Shown here one piece after another: positions 3,285 through 63,917 of a stretch of DNA of 64,000 nt. Positions within the stretch are counted from its first letter, which is position 1, and every line of letters begins with the position of its first letter. A model generated the notes under the pieces. The model made no database searches. It was not told the origin of the DNA and saw only the letters and a list, made by a program, of their open reading frames with translations. Position numbers and translations under genes: made by a program. This DNA comes from Nocardioides nitrophenolicus. GTDB lineage: Bacteria > Actinomycetota > Actinomycetes > Propionibacteriales > Nocardioidaceae. The stretch spans positions 1,302,001 through 1,366,000 of the forward strand of contig NZ_JAFBBY010000001.1 of the NCBI RefSeq assembly GCF_016907515.1. Reading direction: 5' to 3'.

Positions 3285-6176
3285 TCAGCTGCAGCCGGAG
3301 GTGCTGCCGCAGCCCTCGCACACGTAGCAGGAGCCGGCGGGGCGCATCTTGGTGCCGCAGGTCATGCACAGCGGCGAGTCGACGGCGTGACCGGTGATCT
3401 GCTCGAGCAACTCGGCAGTGGTCTTGGCGACCTTGACCTCGGGGGCACCGGCGAGCGGGTCCTCCTCGACGGTCTCGACGACCTCGGCCTCCACCGGGGC
3501 GGACTTGGCGGCGGGCGCGGTCTCGACCAGCTCGGAGGCGTTGCCGGTCTCCTCGACGGGCTCGTACGAGCCGGTCTCGAGGTGGCGCTGGCGCTCGTCG
3601 GCGGAGTAGATGCCGAGGGCGGAGCGCTCCTCGAAGGAGAGGTAGTCGAGGGCCAGGCGACGGAAGACGTAGTCCATGATCGACTGCGCCATCCGCACGT
3701 CCGGGTCGTCGGTGAGTCCGGCGGGCTCGAAGCGCAGGTTGGTGAACTTCGAGACGTAGGTCTCGAGCGGGACGCCGTACTGGAGACCGATCGAGACCGC
3801 GATCGAGAACGCGTCCATCACGCCGGCCAGGGTCGAGCCCTGCTTGCCGAGCTTGAGGAAGATCTCGCCAAGGGTGTTGTCGTCGTGGGCACCCGAGGTC
3901 ATGTAGCCCTCGGCTCCGGCGACGGTGAAGGACGTGGTCCGGGCCTGGCGCGACTTCGGCAGGCGCTTGCGGGTCGGCGCGTAGACGACCTTCTCGACGA
4001 CCTTCTCGACGACCTTGGCGTCCGCGTCGGCCGCGTCGGCGGCGTCCTTCTTGGCCTTGCCGCCACCGTCGGCCAGCGGCTGGCCGACCTTGCAGTTGTC
4101 GCGGTAGATCGCGGTGGCCTTGAGGCCGAGCTTCCAGGACTCGAGGTAGATCTGCTCGATGTCCTCGATCGAGGCGGACTCGGGCAGGTTGACCGTCTTG
4201 GAGATGGCGCCGGACAGGAACGGCTGGCAGGCCGCCATCATCAGCACGTGGCCCATCGGCTTGAGCGAGCGCTCGCCCATGGCGGTGTCGAAGATCTCGT
4301 AGTGCTCCGGCTTGAGGCCGGGGGCGTCGACGACGTGACCGTGCTCGCCGATGTAGGCGACGATCGCCTCGATCTTCTCCTCGTCGTAGCCGAGCTTCTT
4401 CAGCGCCCGCGGGATGGTCTGGTTGACGATCTGCAGCGAGCCGCCGCCGACGAGCTTCTTGAACTTCACCAGGGAGAAGTCGGGCTCGATGCCGGTGGTG
4501 TCGCAGTCCATCATGAAGCCGATGGTGCCGGTCGGCGCGAGGACCGAGGCCTGGGCGTTGCGGTAGCCGTTGGTCTTGCCGAGCTCGACGACCTTGGCCC
4601 ACTCCTCGGTGGCCAGCTTGTGGACCTCGGCGTCGGCGATGTGCAGGGTGCGCACGTCGTCGTTGGCCGCCTGGTGCTTGCGCATCACCCGCTGGTGGGC
4701 CTCGGCGTTGCGGGCGTAGCCGTTGTAGGGGCCCACGATCGCGGCGAGCTCGGCCGAGCGGCGGTACGACGTGCCGGTCATCAGCGAGGTGACGGTGGCG
4801 GCCATCGCCCGGCCACCCTCGGAGTCGTAGCCGAGGCCCATCGCCATGAGCAGCGCGCCGAGGTTGGCGTAGCCGATGCCGAGCTGGCGGTAGTTGCGGG
4901 TGGTCTCGCCGATCGGCTCGGTCGGGAAGTCGGCGAAGCAGATCGAGATGTCCATCGCGGTGATGATCAGCTCGACGGCCTTGGCGAACAGCGGCGCGTC
5001 GAAGGTGTCGTCGTCGCGCAGGAACTTGAGCAGGTTGAGCGAGGCCAGGTTGCACGAGGAGTTGTCGAGCGACATGTACTCCGAGCACGGGTTGGACGCG
5101 GTGATCCGGCCGGTCTCGGGGTTGGTGTGCCAGTCGTTGATCGTGTCGTCGTACTGCAGGCCCGGGTCGGCGCAGGCCCACGCGGCCTCGCTGATCTTGC
5201 GGAACAGGGCGCGGGCGTCGACGGTCTCGATGACCTCGCCGGTCATCCGGGAGCGCAGGCCGAACTCGCCGCCGTTCTCGACGGCGCGCATGAACTCGTC
5301 GTTGACCCGCACCGAGTTGTTGGCGTTCTGGTACTGGACCGACGTGATGTCCTTGCCGCCGAGGTCCATGTCGTAGCCGGCGTCGCGCAGCGCGCGGATC
5401 TTGTCCTCCTCGCGCCACTTGGTCTCGACGAACTCCTCGATGTCGGGGTGGTCGACGTCGAGGACGACCATCTTGGCCGCACGGCGCGTGGCGCCACCCG
5501 ACTTGATCGTGCCGGCCGAGGCGTCGGCTCCGCGCATGAAGGAGACCGGGCCGGAGGCGGTGCCGCCGCTGCTGAGGAGCTCCTTGGAGGAGCGGATCCG
5601 GGAGAGGTTCAGACCGGCGCCGGAGCCGCCCTTGAAGATGAAGCCCTCCTCCTTGTACCAGTTGAGGATCGAGTCCATCGAGTCGTCAACCGAGAGGATG
5701 AAGCACGCCGAGACCTGCTGGGGAGCGGTGGTGCCGACGTTGAACCAGACCGGGGAGTTGAAGGAGAAGTACTGGTGGGCGAGCAGCCAGGTCAGCTCGT
5801 GCTCGAAGACCTCCGCGTCCGCCGCGCTCGCGAAGTAGCCGTGCTCCTTGCCCGCCTTGACGTAGGTCGACACCACCCGGTCGATGAGCTGCTTGAGGCC
5901 ACGCTCCCGCTCGGGCGTGCCGACGGCGCCACGGAAGTACTTGGTGGTGACGATGGTGGAGGCGTTGAGCGACCAGAAGTCGGGGAACTCGACCCCGAGC
6001 TGCTCGAAGACGGTCTCGCCGGTCTTCCAGTTGGTCTGGACGACGTCGCGCCGCTCCCAGGTGATCTCGTCGTACGGGTGCACCCCCTCGGTGCTGAAGA
6101 CCCGCTGGATCTTCAGTCCGTTCGTGGGGTAGCTGGCCGTCTCGCTGGGCGTCTGGCTGCGGGCCGTCTCGGTCAT
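3285..6176 (-). CDS. nrdJ: Vitamin B12-dependent ribonucleotide reductase (class II)
   Basis: Makes deoxyribonucleotides from ribonucleotides using adenosylcobalamin to generate the thiyl radical; works with or without oxygen. The 963-residue product has the active-site NPCSE motif at 362-366, Cys158 in the QVSACFIL block as a likely redox-active Cys, the SLDNSSCNLASLNLL block just after, and a C-terminal Cys-rich tail (CMTCGTKM, CYVCEGCG) that shuttles reducing power. I chose ATG 6176 because AGGAGA stands eight bases upstream; a longer reading begins inside the nrdR leader. It follows nrdR by 164 bases on the same strand and is very likely cotranscribed under NrdR control. No class I reductase gene is in the window. 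Confidence 0.97.
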   Translation of the reverse strand: MTETARSQTPSETASYPTNGLKIQRVFSTEGVHPYDEITWERRDVVQTNWKTGETVFEQLGVEFPDFWSLNASTIVTTKYFRGAVGTPERERGLKQLIDRVVSTYVKAGKEHGYFASAADAEVFEHELTWLLAHQYFSFNSPVWFNVGTTAPQQVSACFILSVDDSMDSILNWYKEEGFIFKGGSGAGLNLSRIRSSKELLSSGGTASGPVSFMRGADASAGTIKSGGATRRAAKMVVLDVDHPDIEEFVETKWREEDKIRALRDAGYDMDLGGKDITSVQYQNANNSVRVNDEFMRAVENGGEFGLRSRMTGEVIETVDARALFRKISEAAWACADPGLQYDDTINDWHTNPETGRITASNPCSEYMSLDNSSCNLASLNLLKFLRDDDTFDAPLFAKAVELIITAMDISICFADFPTEPIGETTRNYRQLGIGYANLGALLMAMGLGYDSEGGRAMAATVTSLMTGTSYRRSAELAAIVGPYNGYARNAEAHQRVMRKHQAANDDVRTLHIADAEVHKLATEEWAKVVELGKTNGYRNAQASVLAPTGTIGFMMDCDTTGIEPDFSLVKFKKLVGGGSLQIVNQTIPRALKKLGYDEEKIEAIVAYIGEHGHVVDAPGLKPEHYEIFDTAMGERSLKPMGHVLMMAACQPFLSGAISKTVNLPESASIEDIEQIYLESWKLGLKATAIYRDNCKVGQPLADGGGKAKKDAADAADADAKVVEKVVEKVVYAPTRKRLPKSRQARTTSFTVAGAEGYMTSGAHDDNTLGEIFLKLGKQGSTLAGVMDAFSIAVSIGLQYGVPLETYVSKFTNLRFEPAGLTDDPDVRMAQSIMDYVFRRLALDYLSFEERSALGIYSADERQRHLETGSYEPVEETGNASELVETAPAAKSAPVEAEVVETVEEDPLAGAPEVKVAKTTAELLEQITGHAVDSPLCMTCGTKMRPAGSCYVCEGCGSTSGCS

Positions 6177-6298
6177 GGCTCTCCTGGTCTCCTCTGTCGG
6201 CGTGTCTGTCGGCGGTCTGTCGCGGGCGGTGCGTGTGGGCGGAGCGTCGGCGATGCGGCGGGAGCCGCGCGGGCTCCCGCGGAACGGGGAAGGTGGTG

Positions 6299-6332
6299 GC
6301 CCGGCAGGCAGCTTCCCCACTACCTGCCGGGC
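6299..6332. terminator. Hairpin between nrdR and nrdJ
   Basis: Ten-bp inverted repeat (GCCCGGCAGG at 6299-6308 and its complement at 6323-6332) with a 14-base loop, directly after the nrdR stop. No T run follows on the minus strand. It could be a partial terminator, an mRNA-processing or stability hairpin, or an attenuator setting the ratio of NrdR to NrdJ. Confidence 0.5.
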
Positions 6333-6340
6333 GTCTGTGG

Positions 6341-6832
6341 TCAGCCCGTCGCGGCGGGCTGGGCTCCCTCGGACTGGAGCTGGCGCTCGGCCCGCATCAG
6401 GGAGATCTCGTTCTCGAAGTCGGCGGCCGAGTCGAAGCCGCGGTAGACGGAGGCGAAGCGGAGGTAGGCGACCTCGTCGAGACGGCGCAGCGGCGAGAGG
6501 ATCGCCAGGCCCACCTCGTGGGCCGCGATCTCGGGGCTGCCGGCCAGCCGGAGCTGGTCCTCGACCTCCTGGCCCAGCCGGGCCAGGTCGTCCTCGTCCA
6601 CCGGGCGACCCTTGCAGGCCTTGCGGACACCGGCGACGGCCTTCTCGCGGGTGAACGGCTCGGTCGCGCCGGAGCGCTTGAGCACGGTCAGCTGCATGGC
6701 CTCGACGGTCGTGAACCGCTTCTCACAGCTCGGCGACTGGCAGACCCGGCGACGCCGGATCGAGCAGCCGTCGTCGGAGACGCGGGAGTCGAGGACCTTG
6801 GTGTCGTGGTGCTTGCAGTACGGACAGTGCAT
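6341..6832 (-). CDS. nrdR: Transcriptional repressor NrdR
   Basis: ATP/dATP-sensing repressor of ribonucleotide reductase genes. The 163-residue product has the N-terminal zinc ribbon (CPYC at 3-6, CQSPSC at 31-36) and then the ATP-cone domain ([16 protein letters not shown] to about residue 140), the full family layout. The start ATG follows a strong GGAAGGAGGGG site. It is the first gene of the nrdR-nrdJ unit, and its promoter region carries two NrdR boxes, so autoregulation is expected. Confidence 0.97.
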
Positions 6833-6860
6833 GGGTCCCCTCCTTCCCGAGCCTACGACC

Positions 6861-6887
6861 TGTGGACAAGCCCCAGCCTGTGGAAAA
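6861..6887 (-). promoter_or_regulatory. DnaA-box-like sites upstream of nrdR
   Basis: Read on the nrdR coding strand, TTGTCCACA (6861-6869) matches the high-GC actinobacterial DnaA box exactly and TTTTCCACA (6879-6887) differs at one base. Two further one-mismatch sites, TAGTCCACA (6944-6952) and TTCTCCACA (6954-6962), lie in the same orientation and overlap the first NrdR box. DnaA control of ribonucleotide reductase is established for E. coli nrdAB; here it is inference from the sites. Confidence 0.5.
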
Positions 6888-6945
6888 GTCGGGGCGATCT
6901 GTGCGTTTCCACTCTTGTCCTGTGGGTGACGAAGGGTCGCCTTGT

Positions 6946-6992
6946 GGACTAGATGTGGAGAACTACATCGTTGTAACTACTAGATGTAGTGG
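6946..6992 (-). promoter_or_regulatory. Tandem NrdR boxes upstream of nrdR-nrdJ
   Basis: Two 16-bp sites (6946-6961 and 6977-6992) share the core ACATCTAGT on the nrdR coding strand and fit the NrdR-box form with C and G half-sites around an A/T-rich centre. Their starts are 31 bp apart, about three helical turns, which is the classic tandem spacing for NrdR. They lie 114-160 bases upstream of the nrdR start. The rest of the 353-base gap up to the next gene at 7186 shows no gene. Confidence 0.8.
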
Positions 6993-7185
6993 TAACCGTA
7001 CGCCTCGGCCACCAGTGATGCAAGCGCGGGCCGCGGCGAGTTCGAGAGCGGGTCGCGTCCGACGGCATTTGCGCAGGTCACCCCGCATGACAGCCCCGGC
7101 GACGGCTCCGGAACCGGCGTTTCGCGGCCGGCCAAGCGGGGTCGAGGGCGCGTTGGCTGAGCATTCCACCCACCCATCGGCAACA

Positions 7186-7524
7186 ATGACCGCCGTGACG
7201 GGTGGCAAGCGGGCTGGCGATCGAGCGAAGGCGACGTTCCGTCCCGCCCTGCTGCTCATCGCCGCGGGCGCCACCGCCTCCGTGGTCGCGTGGGGATATC
7301 TCGTCATCGCCGCGATCGACTTCGGCGCGACCGGACGCCACGACGGCAAGACCAGCGCGTGGGTGCTGATGGGCGTCGCGTCGCTGGGCGCCATGCTCTG
7401 CCTGTTCCTCACCTTCATGCTGGCGATCCGCCTCTCCCGCGCGCTCGGCATGTCCCACCACCACGAGCCGCGGCCCAAGCGGGACCCGGCCACCCCCAAG
7501 GGCGGCAAGCGCGCCGCTCGCTGA
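7186..7524 (+). CDS. Small membrane protein of unknown function
   Basis: A 112-residue protein with two predicted membrane helices: about residues 18-42 (ALLLIAAGATASVVAWGYLVI) and 60-85 (WVLMGVASLGAMLCLFLTFML). The C-terminus is basic and probably cytoplasmic (HHHEPRPKRDP, KGGKRAAR). I chose ATG 7186; GTG 7195 is possible. Longer upstream reading would run through the nrdR promoter and is rejected. No family is recognised. It lies between nrdR and the LysM-lexA pair and ends at a bidirectional terminator. Confidence 0.7.
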   Translation: MTAVTGGKRAGDRAKATFRPALLLIAAGATASVVAWGYLVIAAIDFGATGRHDGKTSAWVLMGVASLGAMLCLFLTFMLAIRLSRALGMSHHHEPRPKRDPATPKGGKRAAR

Positions 7525-7564
7525 CCGCGCGACGTACGCCGCGGCCACGCGACCCGAGGACGCG

Positions 7565-7603
7565 CGAGGGGCGGGATCCGGTTCGGTCGGATCCCGCCCC
7601 TCG
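7565..7603. terminator. Bidirectional terminator
   Basis: A perfect 16-bp stem centred on GGCGGGATCCG and its complement, with a seven-base loop (7581-7587), sits between the convergent membrane-protein and LysM genes. On the plus strand a short TCTTCCCC tract follows. Confidence 0.8.
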
Positions 7604-7692
7604 TCTTCCCCAAGGCCAATGCTGGCCGGTCTCCGCTGGGGTCGAGTCAGCGGAGAGCTCGTGGACGGGCGGCGCGGCCGCCCGGGAACCGC

Positions 7693-8082
7693 TCAGTGCG
7701 TCGGGACGCGCAGCTCCTGGCCGACGTAGACCACGCTGCCGTCGAGGGTGTTGAGCTGCTGGATCGTCTGCATCATGTCGCGCACGTCGTCGCCCGAGGT
7801 GGCGGCCGCGTCGCTGGCGATGTCCCACAGCGTGTCGCCCGGACCGACCGTCACCAGCTGGACCTGCGGCGCGCCGCCGCCGTCGCGGGTGGCGGCGGAG
7901 CCGGCGGCGAGCCAGACCGCGGCCAGGGTGACGGCGACCAGGGCCAGCAGGAACACGACCGCACGGCCGCGCCGGGTCAGCCGGACCTGGCCCCGCGGAG
8001 CGGGGCGAGCGGCGACGGGGCGGGCGGCGGTCGCCGAGCGGCGGACCTGGGTGACACGGGGTGCGACGGTGAGGGTGCTCAT
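7693..8082 (-). CDS. LysM-domain membrane-anchored protein, SOS-controlled by position
   Basis: A 129-residue protein with a basic N-terminus, one membrane helix at about residues 43-63 (AVVFLLALVAVTLAAVWLAAG) and a C-terminal LysM fold (QLVTVGPGDTLWDIASDAAA, then NTLDGSVVYVGQELRVP) outside the cell, binding peptidoglycan. ATG 8082 is chosen because GGAGG lies eight bases upstream. It is divergent from lexA, and an SOS-box-like site lies about 95 bases upstream. This layout resembles yneA of Bacillus and divS-type genes next to lexA, whose products delay division after DNA damage. The division-inhibitor role is inference from layout. Confidence 0.8.
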   Translation of the reverse strand: MSTLTVAPRVTQVRRSATAARPVAARPAPRGQVRLTRRGRAVVFLLALVAVTLAAVWLAAGSAATRDGGGAPQVQLVTVGPGDTLWDIASDAAATSGDDVRDMMQTIQQLNTLDGSVVYVGQELRVPTH

Positions 8083-8175
8083 GGTGATGACCTCCGGGGG
8101 AAGGGACGGGGCTGTCTGCAACCAGGGAGGTTGTATCCAGGGGGTCCGACGGAAGGTGTTCGATCAGGCGTTCGA

Positions 8176-8191
8176 TCGAACATGTGTACGA
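8176..8191 (-). promoter_or_regulatory. SOS (LexA) box for the LysM gene
   Basis: TCGAAC-ATGT-GTACGA differs at one base from the actinobacterial LexA palindrome TCGAAC-N4-GTTCGA. It lies on the side of the divergent region nearest the LysM gene, 94 bases from its start. Confidence 0.6.
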
Positions 8192-8264
8192 GATTAGATC
8201 AGGTGTTCGAAGATTTCCAGCACCGTTCGAAAGTTCGTTCGACCGGCGTGTCGCGACACGCGGT

Positions 8265-8280
8265 TCGAACAGGTGTTTGA
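8265..8280 (+). promoter_or_regulatory. SOS (LexA) box for lexA
   Basis: TCGAAC-AGGT-GTTTGA differs at one base from TCGAAC-N4-GTTCGA and lies 85 bases upstream of the lexA start, as expected for an autorepressed lexA. More GTTCGA-like half-sites lie between the two boxes. Confidence 0.72.
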
Positions 8281-8365
8281 AACCGGCGGGTGGGTTCGGT
8301 TAGCGTCGTCACACGGGCCCGGTCGATCCGGGCCACACCACCCGATCCGATCTGGAGGGCGATCC

Positions 8366-9115
8366 ATGGCTGAGCGCAAGGGCACTGAGCGCAAGGACGG
8401 CGGGCCGGCCAGCAGCGTCACCGAGCTGCCCGACGGCCCCGCCGACGCGACCGGGCTGACCCCGCGCCAGCAGCGGGTCCTGGCCCACATCAAGGACAGC
8501 ATCGAGAAGCGGGGCTACCCGCCCAGCATGCGCGAGATCGGCCAGGCGGTCGGGCTCACCAGCACCTCCAGCGTCGCCCACCAGCTGCGCACCCTCGAGG
8601 AGAAGGGCTACCTCAAGCGCGACCCCAACCGGCCCCGCGCGCTCGAGGTGTTCCTGCCCGAGGTGATGGCGGCGCGCCGAGCGATGGGCGCCGCCGAGGA
8701 GACGACGTACGACGAGACCGGGATCGGCGACGCCGCGCCGGCGCCCGCCAACGTCCCCGTCGTCGGCCGGATCGCGGCCGGTGGCCCGATCCTCGCCGAG
8801 GAGCGGGTCGAGGACGTCTTCCCGCTTCCGCGCCAGCTCGTCGGCGACGGCCAGCTGTTCCTGCTCGAGGTCAGCGGCGAGTCGATGATCGAGGCCGCGA
8901 TCTGCGACGGCGACTACGTCGTCATCCGCCAGCAGCCCACGGCCGAGAACGGCGAGATCGTCGCCGCGATGATCGACGGCGAGGCGACGGTCAAGACCTT
9001 CCAGCGCAAGGCAGGTCAGGTCTGGCTGCTCCCCCACAACCCGGCGTTCGAGCCGATCGACGGCACGAACGCGACCATCCTCGGCAAGGTGACGGCGGTG
9101 CTCCGGCGGGTGTGA
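8366..9115 (+). CDS. lexA: SOS-response repressor LexA
   Basis: Repressor of DNA-damage genes that cleaves itself when stimulated by RecA filaments. The 249-residue product has a winged HTH (about 31-95, with [20 protein letters not shown]), the scissile Ala138-Gly139 in RIAAGGP, and the catalytic dyad Ser173 (SGESMIEA) and Lys210 (EATVKTF). ATG 8366 is chosen for the GGAGGG site upstream; earlier in-frame codons fall inside the operator region. A 30-residue N-terminal extension rich in charged residues precedes the HTH, as common in actinobacteria. It is divergent from the LysM gene. Confidence 0.98.
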
Positions 9116-55948: not shown

Positions 55949-56809
55949 TCAGAACACGGGTTTGCCGCCCGTCACGCCGAGCACCGTGCCCGAGACGTAC
56001 GACGCGTCGGCCGGCGAGGCGAGGAAGACGAACGCGGGCGCCACCTCGGCGGGCTGTCCGGCCCGCCCGAGCGGGGTGTCGGTCCCGAACTGCTCGACCT
56101 TCTCGGGCTCCTGGGTGGCCGGCTGCAGCGGGGTCCAGATCGGGCCCGGCGCGACCGCGTTGACCCGCACTCCGTCGCGGCCCAGCGAGGCCGCGAGGTT
56201 CACGGTGAGGTTGTTGATCGCGGCCTTCGTGGCGGCGTAGTCGAGCAGCGTCTCGGAGGGCTCGAAGGCCTGGATCGAGGCGTTGTTGACGATGCAGCCC
56301 GGCCGCTTGCGCAGGTGCGGCGCGGCGGCGCGCACCAGCCACAGCAGCGCGTACAGGTTGGTCTTGAGCGTGCGGTCGATCCGCTCGTCGCTGAGGTCGT
56401 CGACGGCATGGTCGCGCGCCATCTGGTAGCCCGCGTTGTTGACCAGCACGTCGAGCGCGCCGAGCTCCTCGACGGTGCGCCGGACCGCTTCGTCGCACGC
56501 CTCGCTGCTGCGCAGGTCGAGCGGCAGTGCCAGCACCCGCCGGCCGGCGTCACCCACCAGCGCGGCGGTCGTGTCGGCGTCGGGCTGCTCCTCGGGCAGG
56601 TAGGTGAACGCCACGTCGGCGCCCTCCCGGGCGTAGGCGATCGCCACGGCCCGGCCGATGCCGGAGTCGCCCCCGGTGATCAGGGCGACCTGGCCGTCGA
56701 GACGGCCGTGGCCGACGTACGACTGCTCGCCGTGGTCGGGCTCGGGCGCCATCTCTCCCGTCAGTCCGGGGGGCGTCTGCTGCTGGGCGGGGAAAGCCGT
56801 GTCGGTCAT
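55949..56809 (-). CDS. SDR oxidoreductase, YghA/glucose-dehydrogenase-like
   Basis: A 286-residue short-chain dehydrogenase with the 35-residue N-terminal extension typical of YghA/GsiB-linked SDRs (PGLTGEMAPEPDHGEQSYVG). The cofactor motif is TGGDSGIG, followed by VNNAGYQMA, the Ser in NNASIQAF, and YAATKAA for Tyr and Lys. The ending SGTVLGVTGGKPVF is also typical. Such enzymes are induced in general stress; substrate is unknown. Confidence 0.88.
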   Translation of the reverse strand: MTDTAFPAQQQTPPGLTGEMAPEPDHGEQSYVGHGRLDGQVALITGGDSGIGRAVAIAYAREGADVAFTYLPEEQPDADTTAALVGDAGRRVLALPLDLRSSEACDEAVRRTVEELGALDVLVNNAGYQMARDHAVDDLSDERIDRTLKTNLYALLWLVRAAAPHLRKRPGCIVNNASIQAFEPSETLLDYAATKAAINNLTVNLAASLGRDGVRVNAVAPGPIWTPLQPATQEPEKVEQFGTDTPLGRAGQPAEVAPAFVFLASPADASYVSGTVLGVTGGKPVF

Positions 56810-56871
56810 CTCCGGCCGTTACCCGGGTGGACCGCGGGGAGTCGGGTACGGCGGTGGGCGAAGCGACGAGC

Positions 56872-57570
56872 TCAGTCGGGCTGGTTTCCCCGAGCCGCCC
56901 GGCTGGCGGTGAGGTCGTCGAGCAGCGCGTCCAGCAACCGGCGCAGTCCAGGATGGCTGACATGCCCCTCCCGAGCCACCTGGATCAGCCGCTCGGCGAC
57001 CTCCCGCACCTTCACGTTGCGGTTGCGTGACCACCACTTGAGCATCGCGAACGCCGCGTCGGCGTCGAGGCCGTAGCCGAGCATCAAGATGCCCTTGGCC
57101 TGCTCGATCTTGTCGCGGGACGCGGCGGAGGCGGCCACGGCGGCGTCCGCGGCGGCCGTCGTCTCGGCCTCGAGCTCGGGTGTGAGGTCGAGGTAGTAGC
57201 CGACCAGCCGGTCGACCTTGCCGCTGCTGCGGCCGTCGTCGTACTGGCCCTCGCCGCACAGCACGACGTTGCGGACCGCGCCGCCGACCAGGATCCGGTA
57301 GTAGACGTTGAACGGCGCACCGTCGCCGATCGCCTCCTGCAGCGTCTGCTCGACCAGCTCGCGGTCCAGCTCGTGCTTGTGGCGCATGATCAGCTCGGTC
57401 GTCGGCTCGACCTCGCCCGGCCGGTAGCCGTGGATGGCGAAGACGTCGTCGTCCCACTCCCAGCGCTCGTCGGCGACGTGGAAGACGAACCGTCCGGTCT
57501 GTCGCGCGGCGTCCGACGCGACCAACCCGGCCAGCGCTGCCGGGTCACCCCCCGGGACTCCTCGACCCAT
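56872..57570 (-). CDS. PAS-ANTAR domain RNA-binding regulator
   Basis: A 232-residue protein with a PAS sensor (about 25-130, FVFHVADERWEWDDDVFAIH, GYRPGEVEPTTELIMRHKHE) and a C-terminal ANTAR domain (about 150-205, IEQAKGILMLGYGLDADAAF, then KVREVAERLI). ANTAR proteins bind paired hairpins in nascent RNA and block termination. ATG 57570 is chosen for GGAGGATCAG upstream. It diverges from the diiron-enzyme operon, so that operon's leader is a natural target to test. Confidence 0.9.
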   Translation of the reverse strand: MGRGVPGGDPAALAGLVASDAARQTGRFVFHVADERWEWDDDVFAIHGYRPGEVEPTTELIMRHKHELDRELVEQTLQEAIGDGAPFNVYYRILVGGAVRNVVLCGEGQYDDGRSSGKVDRLVGYYLDLTPELEAETTAAADAAVAASAASRDKIEQAKGILMLGYGLDADAAFAMLKWWSRNRNVKVREVAERLIQVAREGHVSHPGLRRLLDALLDDLTASRAARGNQPD

Positions 57571-57617
57571 CTGATCCTCCGTGCGGGTGCTCGTGACTGC
57601 GTATGCCTGCCGACGCC

Positions 57618-57629
57618 CGGGGTACCCCG
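57618..57629. promoter_or_regulatory. 12-bp palindrome in the PAS-ANTAR/diiron operon interval
   Basis: CGGGGTACCCCG is a perfect palindrome in the 81-base divergent gap, 22 bases upstream of the first operon start. It could be an operator or overlapping GGGTA-type -10 elements of a SigB-like sigma factor in both directions; no convincing -35 was seen. Confidence 0.35.
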
Positions 57630-57651
57630 CATCCATCCGGAGGAGGCCGCC

Positions 57652-57804
57652 ATGGGACGTCGGACCGTCTGCGATGAGAACTATCCCGAACACCGCGGGA
57701 AGCGCACAACGGGGGGTCACCTCCTCGCGCTGATGCGGCTGCGTCGGGTACTGCTGCGCCTGATCCTGGGCGAGCCGTGGGAGGGAAGGACGAGAACCGG
57801 ATGA
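57652..57804 (+). CDS. Small basic protein opening the diiron-enzyme operon
   Basis: A 50-residue protein, MGRRTVCDENYPEHRGKRTT followed by a Leu/Arg-rich helix (LLALMRLRRVLLRLILG). GGAGGAGG lies right before the ATG and its stop overlaps the next start (ATGA), which support a real gene. The helix is amphipathic and basic and might bind the membrane or RNA. One Cys at residue 7. Unknown family. Confidence 0.55.
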   Translation: MGRRTVCDENYPEHRGKRTTGGHLLALMRLRRVLLRLILGEPWEGRTRTG

Positions 57805-58829
57805 AGTTGCCCGAGCCCTGTGGACCGCTCAGCGCGGGCGTCGTCGAGACGCTGCGGGCGCGACCGCACGGACCGCACGCCGTGCCCGAGCCGAGGGCGA
57901 TGGGCGATGTCACCTATCCCCTCACCGATCGCGACTTCCAGCTCGCGCTGTGGGTGCTCTACGAGCTGCACTACCGCGGCTTCGACGACGTGGACGATCC
58001 GCACGCCGAGTGGGATCCCCTGCTCCTGGTGAGCCGGGCGGCACTGGAGCGCACCTTCGAGCACACCGTGCGCCAGCTGGTTCAGGACACGCCCGCCGAG
58101 GCGCCCGCGCTGGATGACCTCGGCGACACGCCCACCGCGCAGGTCACCGCCGCCCTGGTGCGGATGACCGCGCGCTCGGGTCCGTCGGAGCTCGCGCAGT
58201 TCCTGCACCGCCGCGCCACCCGCGAAGAGTTCCAGGCATACCTCTCCGAGCGCGCCGTCTACCACCTGCGCGAGTCCGACCCGCAGAGCTTCGTGCTGCC
58301 GCGCATCGGCGGCGCCGCCAAGGTCGCCCTCGCCGAGCTGCAGTACGACGAGTACGGCGGCGGCCGGGCGGAGCGGCTGCACCAGGCGCTCTTCGCCCGC
58401 GCGCTGGCATCCCTGGACCTGCCGACGGACCTCGCGCCGTATGTCGCGCAGGCGACGGGCGCGACCCTCGCGTCGGTGAACCTGATGTCGCTGTTCGCCC
58501 TCAACCGCCGCCTGCGCGGCGCCGCGATGGGACACCTGGCCGCCTTCGAGGCGACCAGCTCGCTGCCGTGCGAGCGGATCCTGCGCGGTGCGCGGCGGCT
58601 CCGGCTGCCGGACGCGGTCGCCGACTACTACGACGAGCACGTCGAGGCCGACGCGGTGCACGAGCAGCTCGCGATCCGCGGCATCTGCGCCACCCTCGTC
58701 GAGGACGAGCCCGAGCTGGCGCCGGACGTCATCCTCGGCGCGACCGCCTGCCTCGCCGTGGACGGGCTGGCCGGCGAGGTGCTGCTCGACGGCTGGCGGT
58801 CCCGCCGCGAGGACCGGGCAGCGGGGTGA
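57801..58829 (+). CDS. Haem-oxygenase-like diiron (iron-containing redox) enzyme
   Basis: A 342-residue all-helical protein of the iron-containing redox enzyme family, which shares the haem-oxygenase fold and binds two metal ions. Candidate ligands are Glu150/His155 (LSERAVYHLRESDP), Glu179-Glu184 (LAELQYDEYGGG) and Asp278/His280/Glu282/His287 (YYDEHVEADAVHEQ); these are read from motif spacing, not proven. Related enzymes oxidise amino-acid-derived or lipid substrates, cleaving C-C or N-C bonds. ATG 57801 overlaps the small upstream gene (ATGA). It is followed by a CDGSH iron-sulfur protein that could serve as electron donor. Confidence 0.85.
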   Translation: MKLPEPCGPLSAGVVETLRARPHGPHAVPEPRAMGDVTYPLTDRDFQLALWVLYELHYRGFDDVDDPHAEWDPLLLVSRAALERTFEHTVRQLVQDTPAEAPALDDLGDTPTAQVTAALVRMTARSGPSELAQFLHRRATREEFQAYLSERAVYHLRESDPQSFVLPRIGGAAKVALAELQYDEYGGGRAERLHQALFARALASLDLPTDLAPYVAQATGATLASVNLMSLFALNRRLRGAAMGHLAAFEATSSLPCERILRGARRLRLPDAVADYYDEHVEADAVHEQLAIRGICATLVEDEPELAPDVILGATACLAVDGLAGEVLLDGWRSRREDRAAG

Positions 58830-58836
58830 GCCGGCG

Positions 58837-59037
58837 ATGAGCAAGCGACGGGTCGTCGTCACGGACTGTCCCGGAGGCCCGCTCCTGGTGCGCGGCGCCG
58901 ACGAGGTGGTCGGCCTCGACGGGAGCACCGCGCCCGTGGAGCGCGCGGTCGTCGCGGTGTGCCGCTGCGGCCGCTCCGACCGGATGCCCTGGTGCGACGA
59001 CAGCCATCGAGACCGACGCAGGAGGAAGCAGCCATGA
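58837..59037 (+). CDS. CDGSH iron-sulfur domain protein
   Basis: A 66-residue protein with one CDGSH-type site: Cys42, Cys44, Cys53 and His57 in CRCGRSDRMPWCDDSH. The usual Gly after C-D is replaced by Asp (C-D-D-S-H). The four ligands for a 2Fe-2S cluster are kept. Such small domains carry electrons or clusters. It lies between the diiron enzyme and the alcohol dehydrogenase and overlaps the latter by ATGA, so all three are probably made together. Confidence 0.88.
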   Translation: MSKRRVVVTDCPGGPLLVRGADEVVGLDGSTAPVERAVVAVCRCGRSDRMPWCDDSHRDRRRRKQP

Positions 59038-60215
59038 GAGCCGTGACCTGGCAGGGCAAGGGCCAGATGAGCGTCGAGGACGTCCCGGACCCGTGGATCC
59101 AGGAACCGGACGACATCGTGATCCGGGTGACCTCGAGCGGGCTGTGCGGCTCGGACCTGCACCTCTACGAGCCCCTGGCGCCGTTCATGGACGTCGGCGA
59201 CGTGGTCGGCCACGAGCCGATCGGCGTCGTCGAGGAGGTCGGGCGCGACGTCTCCTCGCTGCGCCCCGGCGACCGCGTCGTCGTACCGTTCAACGTGAGC
59301 TGCGGCCACTGCTGGATGTGCGCCCGCGGCCTGCAGAGCCAGTGCGAGACGACCCAGAACGCGGAGCAGGGCACGGGTGCGAGCCTGTTCGGCTACAGCA
59401 AGCTCTACGGCCAGGTACCGGGCGCGCAGGCGGAGTACCTGCGGGTGCCGTTCGCCGACCGGCTGCCGATCAAGGTGCCCGACGGGCCGCCCGACGACAG
59501 GTTCGTCTTCCTCTCCGACGTGCTGCCGACCGCCTGGCAGGCCGTGGAGTACGCCGACCTGCGGCCCGAGGACACCTTGCTGGTGCTCGGGGCGGGGCCG
59601 ATCGGCGACATGTGCGCGCGGATCGCGCTGATGCGCGGGATCCGGGTGTTCGTGGTGGACCCGGTGCCGGAGCGACTGGAGCGCGTCTCGGCGTACGGCG
59701 CCGAGGTGATCGTCACCGACAGCGACGCCGACACCGTGACCTCCGTCCTCGAGCTGACCCGCGGGCGCGGCGCCGACGCCGTGATCGACGCCGTCGGCAT
59801 GGAGGCGCACGGCTCACCGGTCGCCGGGTCGATGGCCAAGGTGGTCGGGCTGCTGCCCGACCGGGTCGCCGCACCGCTGATGAGGCACGCCGGCGTGGAC
59901 CGGCTGGCGGCGCTGCACCTGGCGATCGACGTGGTGCGGCGTGGCGGCACCGTCTCGGTCGTCGGCGTCTACGGCGGCCCGATGGACCCGATGCCGCTGA
60001 TGGAGATGTTCGACAAGCAGGTGCAGCTGCGGATGGGCCAGGCCAACGTGCGCCGGTGGAGCGACGACATCCTCGCGCTGCTGCTGGAGCCGACCGACCA
60101 TCTCGGCGTCGAGTCCTTCGCCACCCACCACCTCCCGCTGGAGGAGGCGCCGGCGGCCTATCAGGACTTCCGCGAGAAGAACGACGGCATGGTCAAGGTG
60201 CTCTTCCGCCCCTGA
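59034..60215 (+). CDS. Zinc-dependent alcohol dehydrogenase, glutathione-independent formaldehyde/threonine-type
   Basis: A 393-residue medium-chain dehydrogenase. Catalytic zinc ligands are Cys38 in SGLCGSDLHLYE and the GHEPIGVVEEV His/Glu; the structural zinc loop is CGHCWMCARGLQSQC; the NAD(P) motif is LVLGAGPIGDMCARIA. The long inserts (NAEQGTGASLFGYSKLYGQV) match the formaldehyde-dehydrogenase-like subgroup. ATG 59034 overlaps the CDGSH stop by four bases. It may oxidise the alcohol or aldehyde product of the diiron enzyme, which is inference. An IS110 element lies seven bases past its stop. Confidence 0.9.
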   Translation: MRAVTWQGKGQMSVEDVPDPWIQEPDDIVIRVTSSGLCGSDLHLYEPLAPFMDVGDVVGHEPIGVVEEVGRDVSSLRPGDRVVVPFNVSCGHCWMCARGLQSQCETTQNAEQGTGASLFGYSKLYGQVPGAQAEYLRVPFADRLPIKVPDGPPDDRFVFLSDVLPTAWQAVEYADLRPEDTLLVLGAGPIGDMCARIALMRGIRVFVVDPVPERLERVSAYGAEVIVTDSDADTVTSVLELTRGRGADAVIDAVGMEAHGSPVAGSMAKVVGLLPDRVAAPLMRHAGVDRLAALHLAIDVVRRGGTVSVVGVYGGPMDPMPLMEMFDKQVQLRMGQANVRRWSDDILALLLEPTDHLGVESFATHHLPLEEAPAAYQDFREKNDGMVKVLFRP

Positions 60216-61640
60216 GACGCTTCTATGGGTTGTCAACCCCCTCTGCGGCGAGGTGGCGGTAGATCTCGCGTGCGACGTAGCGCTTGAGGCAGCGCCGGAT
60301 CCGTCTCTTGCTGAGTCCTTGTGCGGTGCGGCGGGCGACGTAGTCGCGGGTGCGTTCGTCGTGTCGCATGCGAGAACTGGCGATGGTGTGGAACGCGCTG
60401 TTGAGCTGGCGGTCGCCGGTCCGGTTGAGCCGGTGCTCGTGCCTGTTTCCGGAGGCGACCTCGAGCGGACTCACGCCCGCGAGTTTCGCGAACGCGGCCT
60501 CATCGCGGACGCGGCCGGGGTGGGACCACGCGGCCAGCACGACCGCTGCTGTGGTCGGCCCCAGGCCGGGCAGGTCGAGCAGCGAGGCGTGGGTGTCGGT
60601 GACCATCTCGAGCAGGGCCTGCTCGTTGGCGTCGACCTCGCTGTCGAGGGCCACGACCCGGGTCGCGAGACGGATCGCCTCGGCTCGCGCCGTCGCCAAG
60701 GCGAGGGTGTCGGACTTGCGCACACGCCAAGCGGCGATGACACGGATGGTGGGCCGGTTGACCTTCTTGCGGGCATCGACGCCCAGGGCGTGGGTGCGCA
60801 GTAGCGCGTTGAGGGCGTTGACCATCCGGGTGCGCTCGCTGGTCATCGCGGCGCGTGCGGTGAGCAGGATTTGCAGGGTGGTCGAGGTGTCCCCGGCGCG
60901 GGCGTCAGCGAGTTGGTCGAGCCTCTTGTGGAGGGTGCCGCGGGCGGCGACGACGGCGTCGATGGTGTCGTTCTTGCCGGTGCCACGTTCCCGCTTCGGC
61001 GACGGCGCGTCCACCACGCGATAGCCGGCCTGGGCCATGAGCGCGGCGATCTGAGCGCCGTAGCTGCGGGTGCCCTCGATGCTGACCAACACTCGGTCCA
61101 GATCGCCTTTGGTGGGTTCGCCCGTGCGGCGGGTGACCCAGGCCGCGGCGCGGAGCAGTCCCTTGGTGTTGGTGGGGAACTCGGCGTCATCGACGATTCC
61201 GCCGGTACGGGTGTCGATGATCGCGTAGTGGTGGGTCGCGGCATGGGTGTCGACCCCAACCACGAACAGGTAGGTGTCTGCGACGATAGGAGCGCCGGTC
61301 ATGAGCGATGTGTTCCTCCTGGTAGGTGGACTGTCGTTGACCGGTCGAACCGGCCGGACCATCCCGGGGAGAATCACTACGCGGCACTACTGTGATGGGT
61401 CACCACGCCCCGCGCGAACGAGGTGTGGGACAGGCTTCTGATCAGGCCAACGTGGTGGGCCGGGTGGCCGGCCGGTTCACCACCGTGATCGGACAAGTCT
61501 CAGACAGGACACCGACGACACGAGTCGTCGGGTCAGCCTAGATCGGGGTCACGATCACGGAGGAGAACCAGCCGGGGATCACCCTGCCAGCCAGCCCCGG
61601 GCCAGCCAGGAGCAACTCTCACAGCCTGGAACCACCGGCT
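60216..61640 (-). mobile_element. IS110-family insertion sequence (ends approximate)
   Basis: One transposase gene, almost no sequence beyond its 3' end, and a 340-base noncoding stretch ahead of it. IS110 elements lack terminal inverted repeats, so the ends cannot be fixed by eye: the right end lies between the dehydrogenase stop (60215) and the transposase stop (60223), the left end before the ANTAR gene stop (61649). The element looks complete and its gene intact, so it may still be active. Confidence 0.8.
60223..61302 (-). CDS. IS110-family DEDD transposase/recombinase
   Basis: A 359-residue recombinase. The N-terminal RuvC-like DEDD site reads Asp18 (VVGVDTHAATHH), Glu76 (VSIEGTRSYG), and Asp112/Asp115 (KNDTIDAVVAA). 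The C-terminal Tnp domain has LDLPGLGPTTAAVVLAAW and the catalytic Ser region EVASGNRHEHRLNRTGDRQL. All key residues are present and the length is normal. ATG 61302 follows AGGAGGAAC. In this family the target is chosen by a noncoding RNA from the element's own end. Confidence 0.95.
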   Translation of the reverse strand: MTGAPIVADTYLFVVGVDTHAATHHYAIIDTRTGGIVDDAEFPTNTKGLLRAAAWVTRRTGEPTKGDLDRVLVSIEGTRSYGAQIAALMAQAGYRVVDAPSPKRERGTGKNDTIDAVVAARGTLHKRLDQLADARAGDTSTTLQILLTARAAMTSERTRMVNALNALLRTHALGVDARKKVNRPTIRVIAAWRVRKSDTLALATARAEAIRLATRVVALDSEVDANEQALLEMVTDTHASLLDLPGLGPTTAAVVLAAWSHPGRVRDEAAFAKLAGVSPLEVASGNRHEHRLNRTGDRQLNSAFHTIASSRMRHDERTRDYVARRTAQGLSKRRIRRCLKRYVAREIYRHLAAEGVDNP

Positions 61641-61648: not shown

Positions 61649-62356
61649 TCACTGCTTCGGACGGTGCCCGTCGACGACCTGGCCCGCGATCGTGGCCAAG
61701 CGGACGTTGAGGCGGTTCGACGTGTCACGCAGCAGGGCGAAGGCCTCCGTGTCGCTCACGTCGTAGGTGGCCATCAGCAGGCCGATCGCCTTGCCGATCT
61801 CACGGTTGCTCGCCAGGCCGGCGCGCAGGCTGTCCGCGGCCTCACGCTCGTTGGCCGCCGCGACAGCGACCGAGGCGAAGGACGCGATGATCGCCCCGAG
61901 GTCCGCCGACTCGCGGGTGAAGGCTCCCGGTGTGTCGGAGAAGAGGTTGAGCGCGCCGACCTTCCGCTCGCCGATGATCACGCGATACCCGATCATCCCT
62001 CGCACCGGCGTCTGGCGGAGCACCCGCTCGGCCAGCCGCGGCCACACGGCGTCGTTCGCGATGTCGGGATCGCGCTCGAACCGCTGGGTGCGGATGGCGT
62101 CGACGCAGGGTCCCTCGCCTACCTCCCACTCGAGCGCGTCGACGGTCCGGGCGATGGCATCCGTCGTCGCCGCGAGCACCGGCCGCTGGCCGGCCTGCAC
62201 CGTGGTGATGCAGGCATGGTCGCATCCCGGCACCACCGCGAGGGCGGTCGCGCACAACGCCTCGTAGACCTCGGGGAAGGAGTTGCCGGCGTAGAGACGC
62301 TGGGCGAAGGACCAGAACGCGGACGCGGCCCCGTCCAGGGGAATCGATGCGGTCAC
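61649..62356 (-). CDS. GAF-ANTAR domain regulator
   Basis: A 235-residue protein (GTG start) with a GAF sensor (about 30-165, VPGCDHACITTVQAGQRPVL, WEVGEGPCVDAI, GERKVGALNLFSD) and a C-terminal ANTAR domain (about 175-228, REIGKAIGLLMATYDVSDTE, AFALLRDTSNRLN). It probably binds nascent RNA to prevent termination in response to a small ligand or redox signal. GAGAGGA lies about nine bases upstream of the GTG. A longer start at 62503 would add 49 residues without family support. Confidence 0.9.
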   Translation of the reverse strand: MTASIPLDGAASAFWSFAQRLYAGNSFPEVYEALCATALAVVPGCDHACITTVQAGQRPVLAATTDAIARTVDALEWEVGEGPCVDAIRTQRFERDPDIANDAVWPRLAERVLRQTPVRGMIGYRVIIGERKVGALNLFSDTPGAFTRESADLGAIIASFASVAVAAANEREAADSLRAGLASNREIGKAIGLLMATYDVSDTEAFALLRDTSNRLNVRLATIAGQVVDGHRPKQ

Positions 62357-62614
62357 GTGCGGGGTCCTCTCTCGCCAGCCGATCGCCTGAGCGACCGGCG
62401 TCAGTATGGCCGCTGGGTCCGGCGGACACCACTCGGGGAGGACGTCCTTTCCCGAGATCCACGACCGCCGCCCGGGCCCGGAGACGGGACGGCCGTGTGA
62501 CATGATCGTGGCGGCTCGAGAAGCAGGGGCCCATCACAGGCGTTCGCCGCCCGTCGCACCGCAGCCGCGGTCCGGCGCCCGGCGCGGCGAGGGTCATGTG
62601 CAGGACGGGCAGCG

Positions 62615-63316
62615 ATGATCTTCGACCTTGCCGGTCCCGGGCCTCTCTGCGCGCAGACCCCCGGGCAACGACCTGGCGCCCAGCCGCGGCTCGCCGGGAG
62701 GTTCTCCTACGTCCCGCGGCGCGACCAGTGGCGGTGGGACGCGGTGGCCGCCCGTCTCCACGGGCTGGAGGACGAGCCGGCGCGCGTGACCACGGAGCGG
62801 CTGCGCGCCCTGGTCCACCCCTCCGACGGCGGCCGGGTGGACCAGCTCGTGACCTCGCTCGGGCAGGAGCGCGGGCCGTTCGCCGTCGGCTACCGCGTCG
62901 AGCTACCCCGCGGGCCCCAGCGCAGGATCCTCGTGGTCGTCGGGCCGCGCGGGCCGGCGCCGTACGCCGAGGGCTTCGTCGTGGACGCCACCGCCTCTCT
63001 CGGTCCCGAGATCCAGCGCGTGGTCTCGGCCTCGGTCGCGTACGCCGTCGGCGACACCGCCGTCGTCGAGCAGGCGGCCGGAGCCCTGTGCCTGGCCTAC
63101 GGCTTCGACCTCGGCCAGGCGAGGACGCAACTGGCCCGCTGGGCGGAGCAGAAGGCGGTCACCGTCGCCGAGGTCGCCCGCTGGATCGTCGACGCACTCG
63201 TCGGCGGAGACCATGCCCGGCCGGGCCTGAGCATCGTCTTCGACGCCCTGCTCCATGACCTCGCCACCGAGACGAGGCGCGCCGGGCGCCTCACCGATCC
63301 ACGGCCGGGCGGGTGA
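62615..63316 (+). CDS. PAS-ANTAR-like regulator with a degenerate ANTAR core
   Basis: A 233-residue protein. Residues 28-125 look like a short PAS domain (GRFSYVPRRDQWRWDAVAAR, LVHPSDGGRVDQLVTSLGQE). Residues 150-205 keep the ANTAR pattern (VEQAAGALCLAYGFDLGQAR, VTVAEVARWIVDALV), though several usual residues differ (EQAAGALC in place of EQAKGILM). It is divergent from the GAF-ANTAR gene and its 3' end overlaps the next ANTAR gene by 26 bases. Confidence 0.78.
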   Translation: MIFDLAGPGPLCAQTPGQRPGAQPRLAGRFSYVPRRDQWRWDAVAARLHGLEDEPARVTTERLRALVHPSDGGRVDQLVTSLGQERGPFAVGYRVELPRGPQRRILVVVGPRGPAPYAEGFVVDATASLGPEIQRVVSASVAYAVGDTAVVEQAAGALCLAYGFDLGQARTQLARWAEQKAVTVAEVARWIVDALVGGDHARPGLSIVFDALLHDLATETRRAGRLTDPRPGG

Positions 63317-63917
63317 GGGTGAGTCCCAGGTCCCCGAGGACGGCGTCGGACCGCGCCGCCAGCTCGGCCGCGAGGACGGGGTTCGCGCGCGCCTCGATCA
63401 GGGCGCCGGCCAGGGTCCGCAGCTTCACGTTGTGGTTGCGCGACCACCACCGCAGCATCTCGAAGGCGGCGTGCGGGTTGACGGAGTACCCCAGCATGAG
63501 CGCACCCTTGGCCCGCTCGATCACGATCCGCGACGAGACCGCCGCCGCCACCGCCTCCTCGATCTCGGCGGCCGCGACCGTCGCCAGCTCCGCCGTCACA
63601 TCGACGTACAGCAGGTCGACGCGGCCCGGGGCGGCATCGTGCGCCTCGGCCCCGACCAGGACGACGACACTGCCGTCGGAAGCCGTCTCCGGGCGGACCC
63701 GGTAGTCGGCCGAGAAGGGACGGGCGGCGTCAGCACGGCACGCGGCCGTCCCCGATGCGGCGACGTCACGATCGAGGTCGGTGGGTGCGGCTCCGGGCTG
63801 CCGGCCGTGCATCCGACCGGCCTCGTCGTCCCAGTGCAGCGAGTCGGCGAGCGGGTCGTAGCAGCCGAGTCCGACGCGGTGCGCAGCCAAGTCGGTCTCC
63901 GTCGGGCCGGTGTTCAC
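63291..63917 (-). CDS. PAS-ANTAR domain regulator
   Basis: A 208-residue protein (GTG start) with a shortened PAS region (about 12-110, HRVGLGCYDPLADSLHWDDE) and an ANTAR domain (about 130-180, IERAKGALMLGYSVNPHAAF, NHNVKLRTLAGALIEA). Its ANTAR part is very like that of the protein at 56872-57570 (both read LRWWSRN/LKWWSRN), so the two are probably paralogues. It is convergent with, and overlaps, the ANTAR gene before it. The last 83 bases of the window hold no supported feature. Confidence 0.87.
   Translation of the reverse strand: MNTGPTETDLAAHRVGLGCYDPLADSLHWDDEAGRMHGRQPGAAPTDLDRDVAASGTAACRADAARPFSADYRVRPETASDGSVVVLVGAEAHDAAPGRVDLLYVDVTAELATVAAAEIEEAVAAAVSSRIVIERAKGALMLGYSVNPHAAFEMLRWWSRNHNVKLRTLAGALIEARANPVLAAELAARSDAVLGDLGLTLTRPAVDR

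Follow-up and report, generated by a model that had tools for sequence, protein, structure and literature searches.

A haem-oxygenase-like diiron oxidase gene paired with a single-domain CDGSH gene across Actinomycetota

Haem-oxygenase-like diiron oxidases (HDOs) form a large family, of which about a dozen members have been validated, and many HDOs have labile diiron clusters (PMC13108848). One HDO, MboA, needs a dedicated electron donor, MboB, and the two are described as possibly the first such pair (PMC13185094). Another, DtpC of Acinetobacter baumannii, is described as a protective HDO whose action depends on its ligands (PMC13232832). Here we analyse an HDO gene from Nocardioides nitrophenolicus, located in a stretch of 64,000 nucleotides (the window; contig NZ_JAFBBY010000001.1, positions 1,302,001 to 1,366,000) and followed by a gene for a single-domain CDGSH [2Fe-2S] protein. 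An initial annotation had proposed a four-gene oxidation system. The HDO–CDGSH pair is the deeply conserved core of that system, which is smaller and far more widespread than proposed. The pairing appears to be undescribed so far: a literature search by titles and abstract openings returned no description of it.

The operon is composed of four genes:

57652–57804, forward strand: small basic open reading frame, 50 residues, pI 11.4, no family match
57801–58829, forward strand: HDO, 342 residues; PF14518 Haem_oxygenas_2, E 1.6e-50
58837–59037, forward strand: single-domain CDGSH [2Fe-2S] protein, 66 residues; PF09360 zf-CDGSH, E 4.8e-15; motif CRCGRSDRMPWCDDSH
59034–60215, forward strand: zinc-type medium-chain dehydrogenase (ADH), 393 residues; ADH_N and ADH_zinc_N

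The gene positions and tight junctions of the initial annotation hold: both ATGA overlaps are real (57801–57804 and 59034–59037) and 7 bp separate the HDO and CDGSH genes. Its phrase 'three of the four junctions' is right about tightness and wrong about the count, as four genes have three junctions, all of which overlap or nearly so. Synteny of the whole block extends to five near relatives and its HDO–CDGSH part recurs far beyond them, so the arrangement is more than chance. The genome carries one HDO (profile search) and one CDGSH gene.

Three samples were used: 147 genomes of the order, searched for HDO and CDGSH matches (order sample); 80 loci holding the best matches to the query HDO, and hence a sample of near relatives (named sample); and 119 genomes drawn from Actinomycetota (phylum sample), with 20 HDO places of at least 170 bits and 34 weaker ones. 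The named and order samples share some genomes (L039 and L002, for instance, come from one genome). Where an inner stop interrupts an HDO place, as in G049 and G075:C2, the place was counted by position, and alignment A1 comprised 27 of 30 loci (L026, L028 and L030 excluded). Three short-fragment HDO rows were left out before pairs were counted in the order sample (G079 at 256917, G002 at 8148736 and G060 at 2821103); the G060 fragment adjoins a CDGSH gene.

Within the order sample, an HDO is found in 93 genomes, a CDGSH protein in 94 and both in 92. CDGSH proteins occur in only two of the 54 genomes that have no HDO (G024 and G127), each of which has a single frame encoding two CDGSH domains. 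The adjacency seen in the window is common elsewhere: a CDGSH gene lies at most 526 bp from 92 of the 97 HDO places (median 84 bp). The arrangement of these 92 pairs varies, with CDGSH downstream on the same strand in 55, divergent in 29, convergent in 5 and upstream on the same strand in 3. As orientation switches while the pair stays intact, function rather than inherited order would explain the linkage. Among the 80 named loci, CDGSH is present in 79 and within 6.5 kb of the HDO in 78; the locus without it (L060) has a sequence that stops 253 bp past the HDO. Across the phylum sample, CDGSH lies at most 1.4 kb from 17 of the 20 HDO places reaching 170 bits and is paired with none of the 34 weaker places, which places the pairing in a single branch of HDOs. 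Four HDOs scoring 164–170 bits (G221, G155, G197 and G243) are members of one family (f17) with no CDGSH gene near by, and may represent a sister branch that uses a different donor. Outside Actinomycetota, a distant HDO on a Paraburkholderia plasmid has no annotated CDGSH gene within 5 kb (3 of 28 plasmid records examined). A PHROGs comparison gave no match.

The enzyme itself has the features of an HDO. Its predicted fold is heme-oxygenase-like and helical, and its predicted metal ligands (E158, E184, H194, H280, D284 and H287), aligned with SznF, are three histidines and three carboxylates on core helices. None of the six varies across the 130 sequences compared, which bears out both the HDO assignment and the ligand conservation that the initial annotation had called for checking. 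By fold and by sequence, this HDO is closest to the N-oxygenases HrmI, RohS and SznF. Position 191, three residues before H194, is glutamate or aspartate in 87 of the 130 sequences; this position may correspond to that of the seventh, carboxylate ligand of SznF (auxiliary helix, 3H/4C).

The CDGSH protein scores 56 bits against PF09360 (cut-off 29.5), with three cysteines and one histidine in CRC..PWCDDSH. In 80 of 94 pairs the HDO is acidic and the CDGSH protein basic, and these opposite charges lend weak support to docking. Two CDGSH matches in one open frame, away from any HDO, occur in G024, G127, G111, G043 and G029.

Further features lie on both sides of the operon:

57601–57627, forward strand: SigB/SigF-type promoter-like site, GTAT-N15-GGGTAC, with GGGTA at 57620–57624; kept in L031–L036
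56872–57570, reverse strand: PAS-ANTAR regulator, divergent and local (ANTAR 3.5e-17, PAS_3 1.6e-8)
55949–56809, reverse strand: SDR oxidoreductase; best model PRK06128, score below its cut-off
60223–61377, reverse strand: IS110 transposase, at the left end of a stretch of about 3.8 kb; outside the system

The mycobacterial SigF consensus is GGWWT-N16-17-GGGTAY (PMC7693655). Our search took GTTT with one mismatch allowed (GTAT in the window has one), a spacing of 14–18 and then GGGTA. In the named loci, such sites lie upstream of 23 of 80 HDO genes but of only 45 of 815 other genes; they also precede the HDO in 10 of 30 order loci, the window included. In five near relatives a sigma gene directly follows the ADH. 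Its counterpart in the window's genome, 93% identical, lies at 64037–64843 in window coordinates, just past the window end, and is parted from the ADH by the stretch of about 3.8 kb (about 60216–64023), which is absent there in the five relatives (L031–L035). This stretch holds the IS110 gene, whose protein has one other match in the genome (32% identical), and three ANTAR genes (61649–62503, GAF-ANTAR; 62615–63316; 63291–63917). The best model for the sigma family is TIGR02980 SigBFG (cut-off 234.35), below which the near relative L032 falls (207) and above which L073 lies (241.2). Given a SigB/SigF-type promoter-like site and an adjacent, probably SigB/F/G-type sigma gene, the operon would be made in the general stress response.

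The initial annotation had instead suggested antitermination by the divergent PAS-ANTAR gene. That gene is present (it could begin at 57720 with an upstream GTG as start), but the proposed control is not supported. Neighbouring genes were counted by six-frame searches within 6.5 kb of the HDO, gene-caller cluster counts being set aside for antisense errors, and an ANTAR gene was found in 9 of 80 named and 0 of 20 phylum loci. From its position, the promoter-like site would leave a leader of about 20 nt before the first start codon; the RNA of 57632–57804 shows no structure beyond that of shuffled sequences (z 0.38), and an Rfam scan of 56800–60300 gave only four sub-threshold matches, to unrelated families. 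A SigB/SigF-type promoter and the nearby sigma gene would account for control better. A separate leader element, AACTATCCCGAAC, lies at 57679–57691 inside the small open reading frame and reappears ahead of the HDO gene in 7 of the 80 named loci (L031–L036 and L040; at most one mismatch to TATCCCGAAC). It is kept in L040, where the small open reading frame is absent, and has neither structure nor an Rfam match.

The analysis shows a linked gene pair, invariant ligands, a predicted fold, a promoter-like site upstream and a sigma gene near by, and from these we infer a stress-induced operon in which the CDGSH protein is the dedicated electron donor, or iron–sulfur helper, of the HDO, a reading to which we give an even chance. 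The HDO would bind two irons through its six predicted ligands and activate O2 (or peroxide), thereby oxidising a small molecule or consuming the oxidant; the CDGSH protein would then re-reduce the diiron site for turnover. Electron transfer to that site is its most likely role, and the genomic linkage makes a donor role reasonable. In a Nocardioides-like lineage, the pair would have been joined to the small open reading frame and the zinc dehydrogenase, with a SigB/SigF-type promoter driving the resulting operon. Tentatively, and with more doubt, HDO and CDGSH may form a two-component system of ancient origin in Actinomycetota, serving oxidant defence or oxidation, in which the CDGSH protein keeps the diiron enzyme reduced.

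The four-protein oxidation path, in which the dehydrogenase would convert what the HDO makes and expression would be controlled by ANTAR antitermination, draws on the translational coupling of all four genes, their synteny in the five relatives and an ADH relative (scoring over 300 bits) at most 6.5 kb from the HDO in 12 of 80 named loci, a figure presumed to exceed the rate for a random gene. However, the ADH directly follows the CDGSH gene in only 5 of those 80 loci (L031–L035) and lies within 6.5 kb in 1 of 20 phylum loci, and the control element of the path lacks both frequent ANTAR neighbours and a structured leader. The small open reading frame is found in 6 of 80 named loci, near relatives only, with its frame broken in one (L034). 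A conserved four-gene order is therefore rejected, since these adjacencies are rare elsewhere and both outer genes are local; the ADH is best read as a local passenger of the operon. As an ADH is seldom near the HDO, there is little behind the suggestion that it handles the HDO product, and a conserved three-enzyme pathway is likewise not supported. We consider the four-protein path very improbable. The ADH also falls short as an FdhA-type glutathione-independent formaldehyde dehydrogenase, scoring 145.7 bits against TIGR02819 (equivalog cut-off 636.95).

The HDO could instead serve stress-inducible biosynthesis, as an N-oxygenase or other oxidase acting on an amino acid or derivative and reduced by the CDGSH protein, with a family 2 glycosyltransferase (GT2), a HemK2/MTQ2-like methyltransferase, dehydrogenases and a carboxylate-amine ligase tailoring the product in ways that vary by lineage. 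The N-oxygenase relatives fit this, as do several neighbours. A GT2-like gene, with weak family matches only, lies directly beside the HDO (26–138 bp) in 7 of 80 named and 7 of 20 phylum loci; methyltransferases related to the L040 gene are near 22 of 80 named HDOs, and Kitasatospora-type ones near 6 of 80 named and 5 of 20 phylum HDOs; a YbdK ligase is near 6 of 80 and 1 of 20, and a dimethylargininase occurs in one locus. (Loci with the GT2-like neighbour include L053, L081, L117, L119, L120, L125 and L132; two such loci have no adjacent CDGSH gene.) In Kitasatospora L134, a YbdK ligase, a dimethylargininase, the HDO, CDGSH and a HemK2/MTQ2 methyltransferase lie in series at 4884–8942. The substrate of SznF is a methylated arginine; this and the L134 gene row make an arginine-linked substrate a lead. 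Among other neighbours, sigma genes are near the HDO in 23 of 80 named and 3 of 20 phylum loci, SDR genes in 13 of 80 named loci, and in one Kitasatospora locus SpoIIE, STAS, ATP-binding proteins and CsbD adjoin the pair. No accessory gene is constant, only the HDO and CDGSH genes are, whereas a pathway to a fixed product should retain its other enzymes, and the window has no match to GT2 or to those methyltransferases. Such biosynthesis is rather unlikely. A further reading makes the CDGSH protein a cluster or iron chaperone, or a redox sensor, that metallates or protects a labile diiron site rather than donating electrons. NEET-type clusters are transferable, many HDOs have labile clusters, and the linkage data fit equally well. 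Against it stands MboA/MboB, described as an HDO with a needed dedicated electron donor, and we regard the chaperone role as distinctly improbable.

Several observations weigh against a stress-induced HDO with a CDGSH donor. Of the 80 named HDO genes, 57 have no promoter-like site upstream, those of all 12 Micromonospora loci among them (11 of these loci nonetheless have a sigma gene of the same cluster near the HDO), and in the phylum sample the site was seen at just 4 of 20 loci. One HDO genome (G054) has no CDGSH protein, and tblastn found no CDGSH remnant in the 4 kb searched at its HDO locus (L030); 3 of 20 phylum HDO places are unpaired: that of G224 is a second copy, that of G171 has CDGSH 7.6 kb off and that of G186 lies close to the end of a contig. 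No HDO–CDGSH fusion was found in 100 loci, and PF09360 is absent from all 120 HDO homologues listed of 7996 matches. The closest relatives with solved structures are N-oxygenases of biosynthesis rather than stress proteins, and the HrmI residue aligned with E158 is a phenylalanine, possibly through misalignment. The charge argument is weak because acidic proteins are common, the main text of the DtpC paper does not mention CDGSH (PMC13232832), and our counts and Fisher values ignore the relatedness of the genomes.

We know of no agreed client for bacterial CDGSH proteins. The pairing bears on two questions, how HDOs are re-reduced and what CDGSH proteins serve, and because it is near-obligate (92 of 93 genomes) both become testable with two small genes of a harmless soil species. 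If the donor reading is right, the HDO would be the first defined client of bacterial single-domain CDGSH proteins, and HDOs would be placed in the general stress response, linking to that response a family of enzymes familiar from the chemistry of natural products.

Each known system resembles one part of this pair. Single-domain CDGSH (NEET) proteins such as PDB 3tbm share with ours PF09360 and the C-x-C ... C-D-x-x-H motif (E 2.8e-8); ours has CDDSH where NEET proteins have CDGSH, and its partner is known by linkage. HrmI, RohS and SznF are about 20% identical to this HDO and are described as biosynthetic, whereas this HDO is paired with CDGSH and stress genes. MboA/MboB is similar in that an HDO gene has its own redox partner gene (PMC13185094). 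However, MboB is an NAD(P)H-flavin-Fe2S2 reductase, whereas the partner here is a 66-residue protein with no reductase domain, and the MboA/MboB pair belongs to the mangotoxin operon rather than to a stress response. DtpC, which is co-transcribed with KatE, is likewise a stress-linked HDO outside natural-product operons (PMC13232832). Compared by residue spacing, its H153–H232 distance is 79 versus 86 here, and its E143–H153 distance of 10 equals that of E184–H194.
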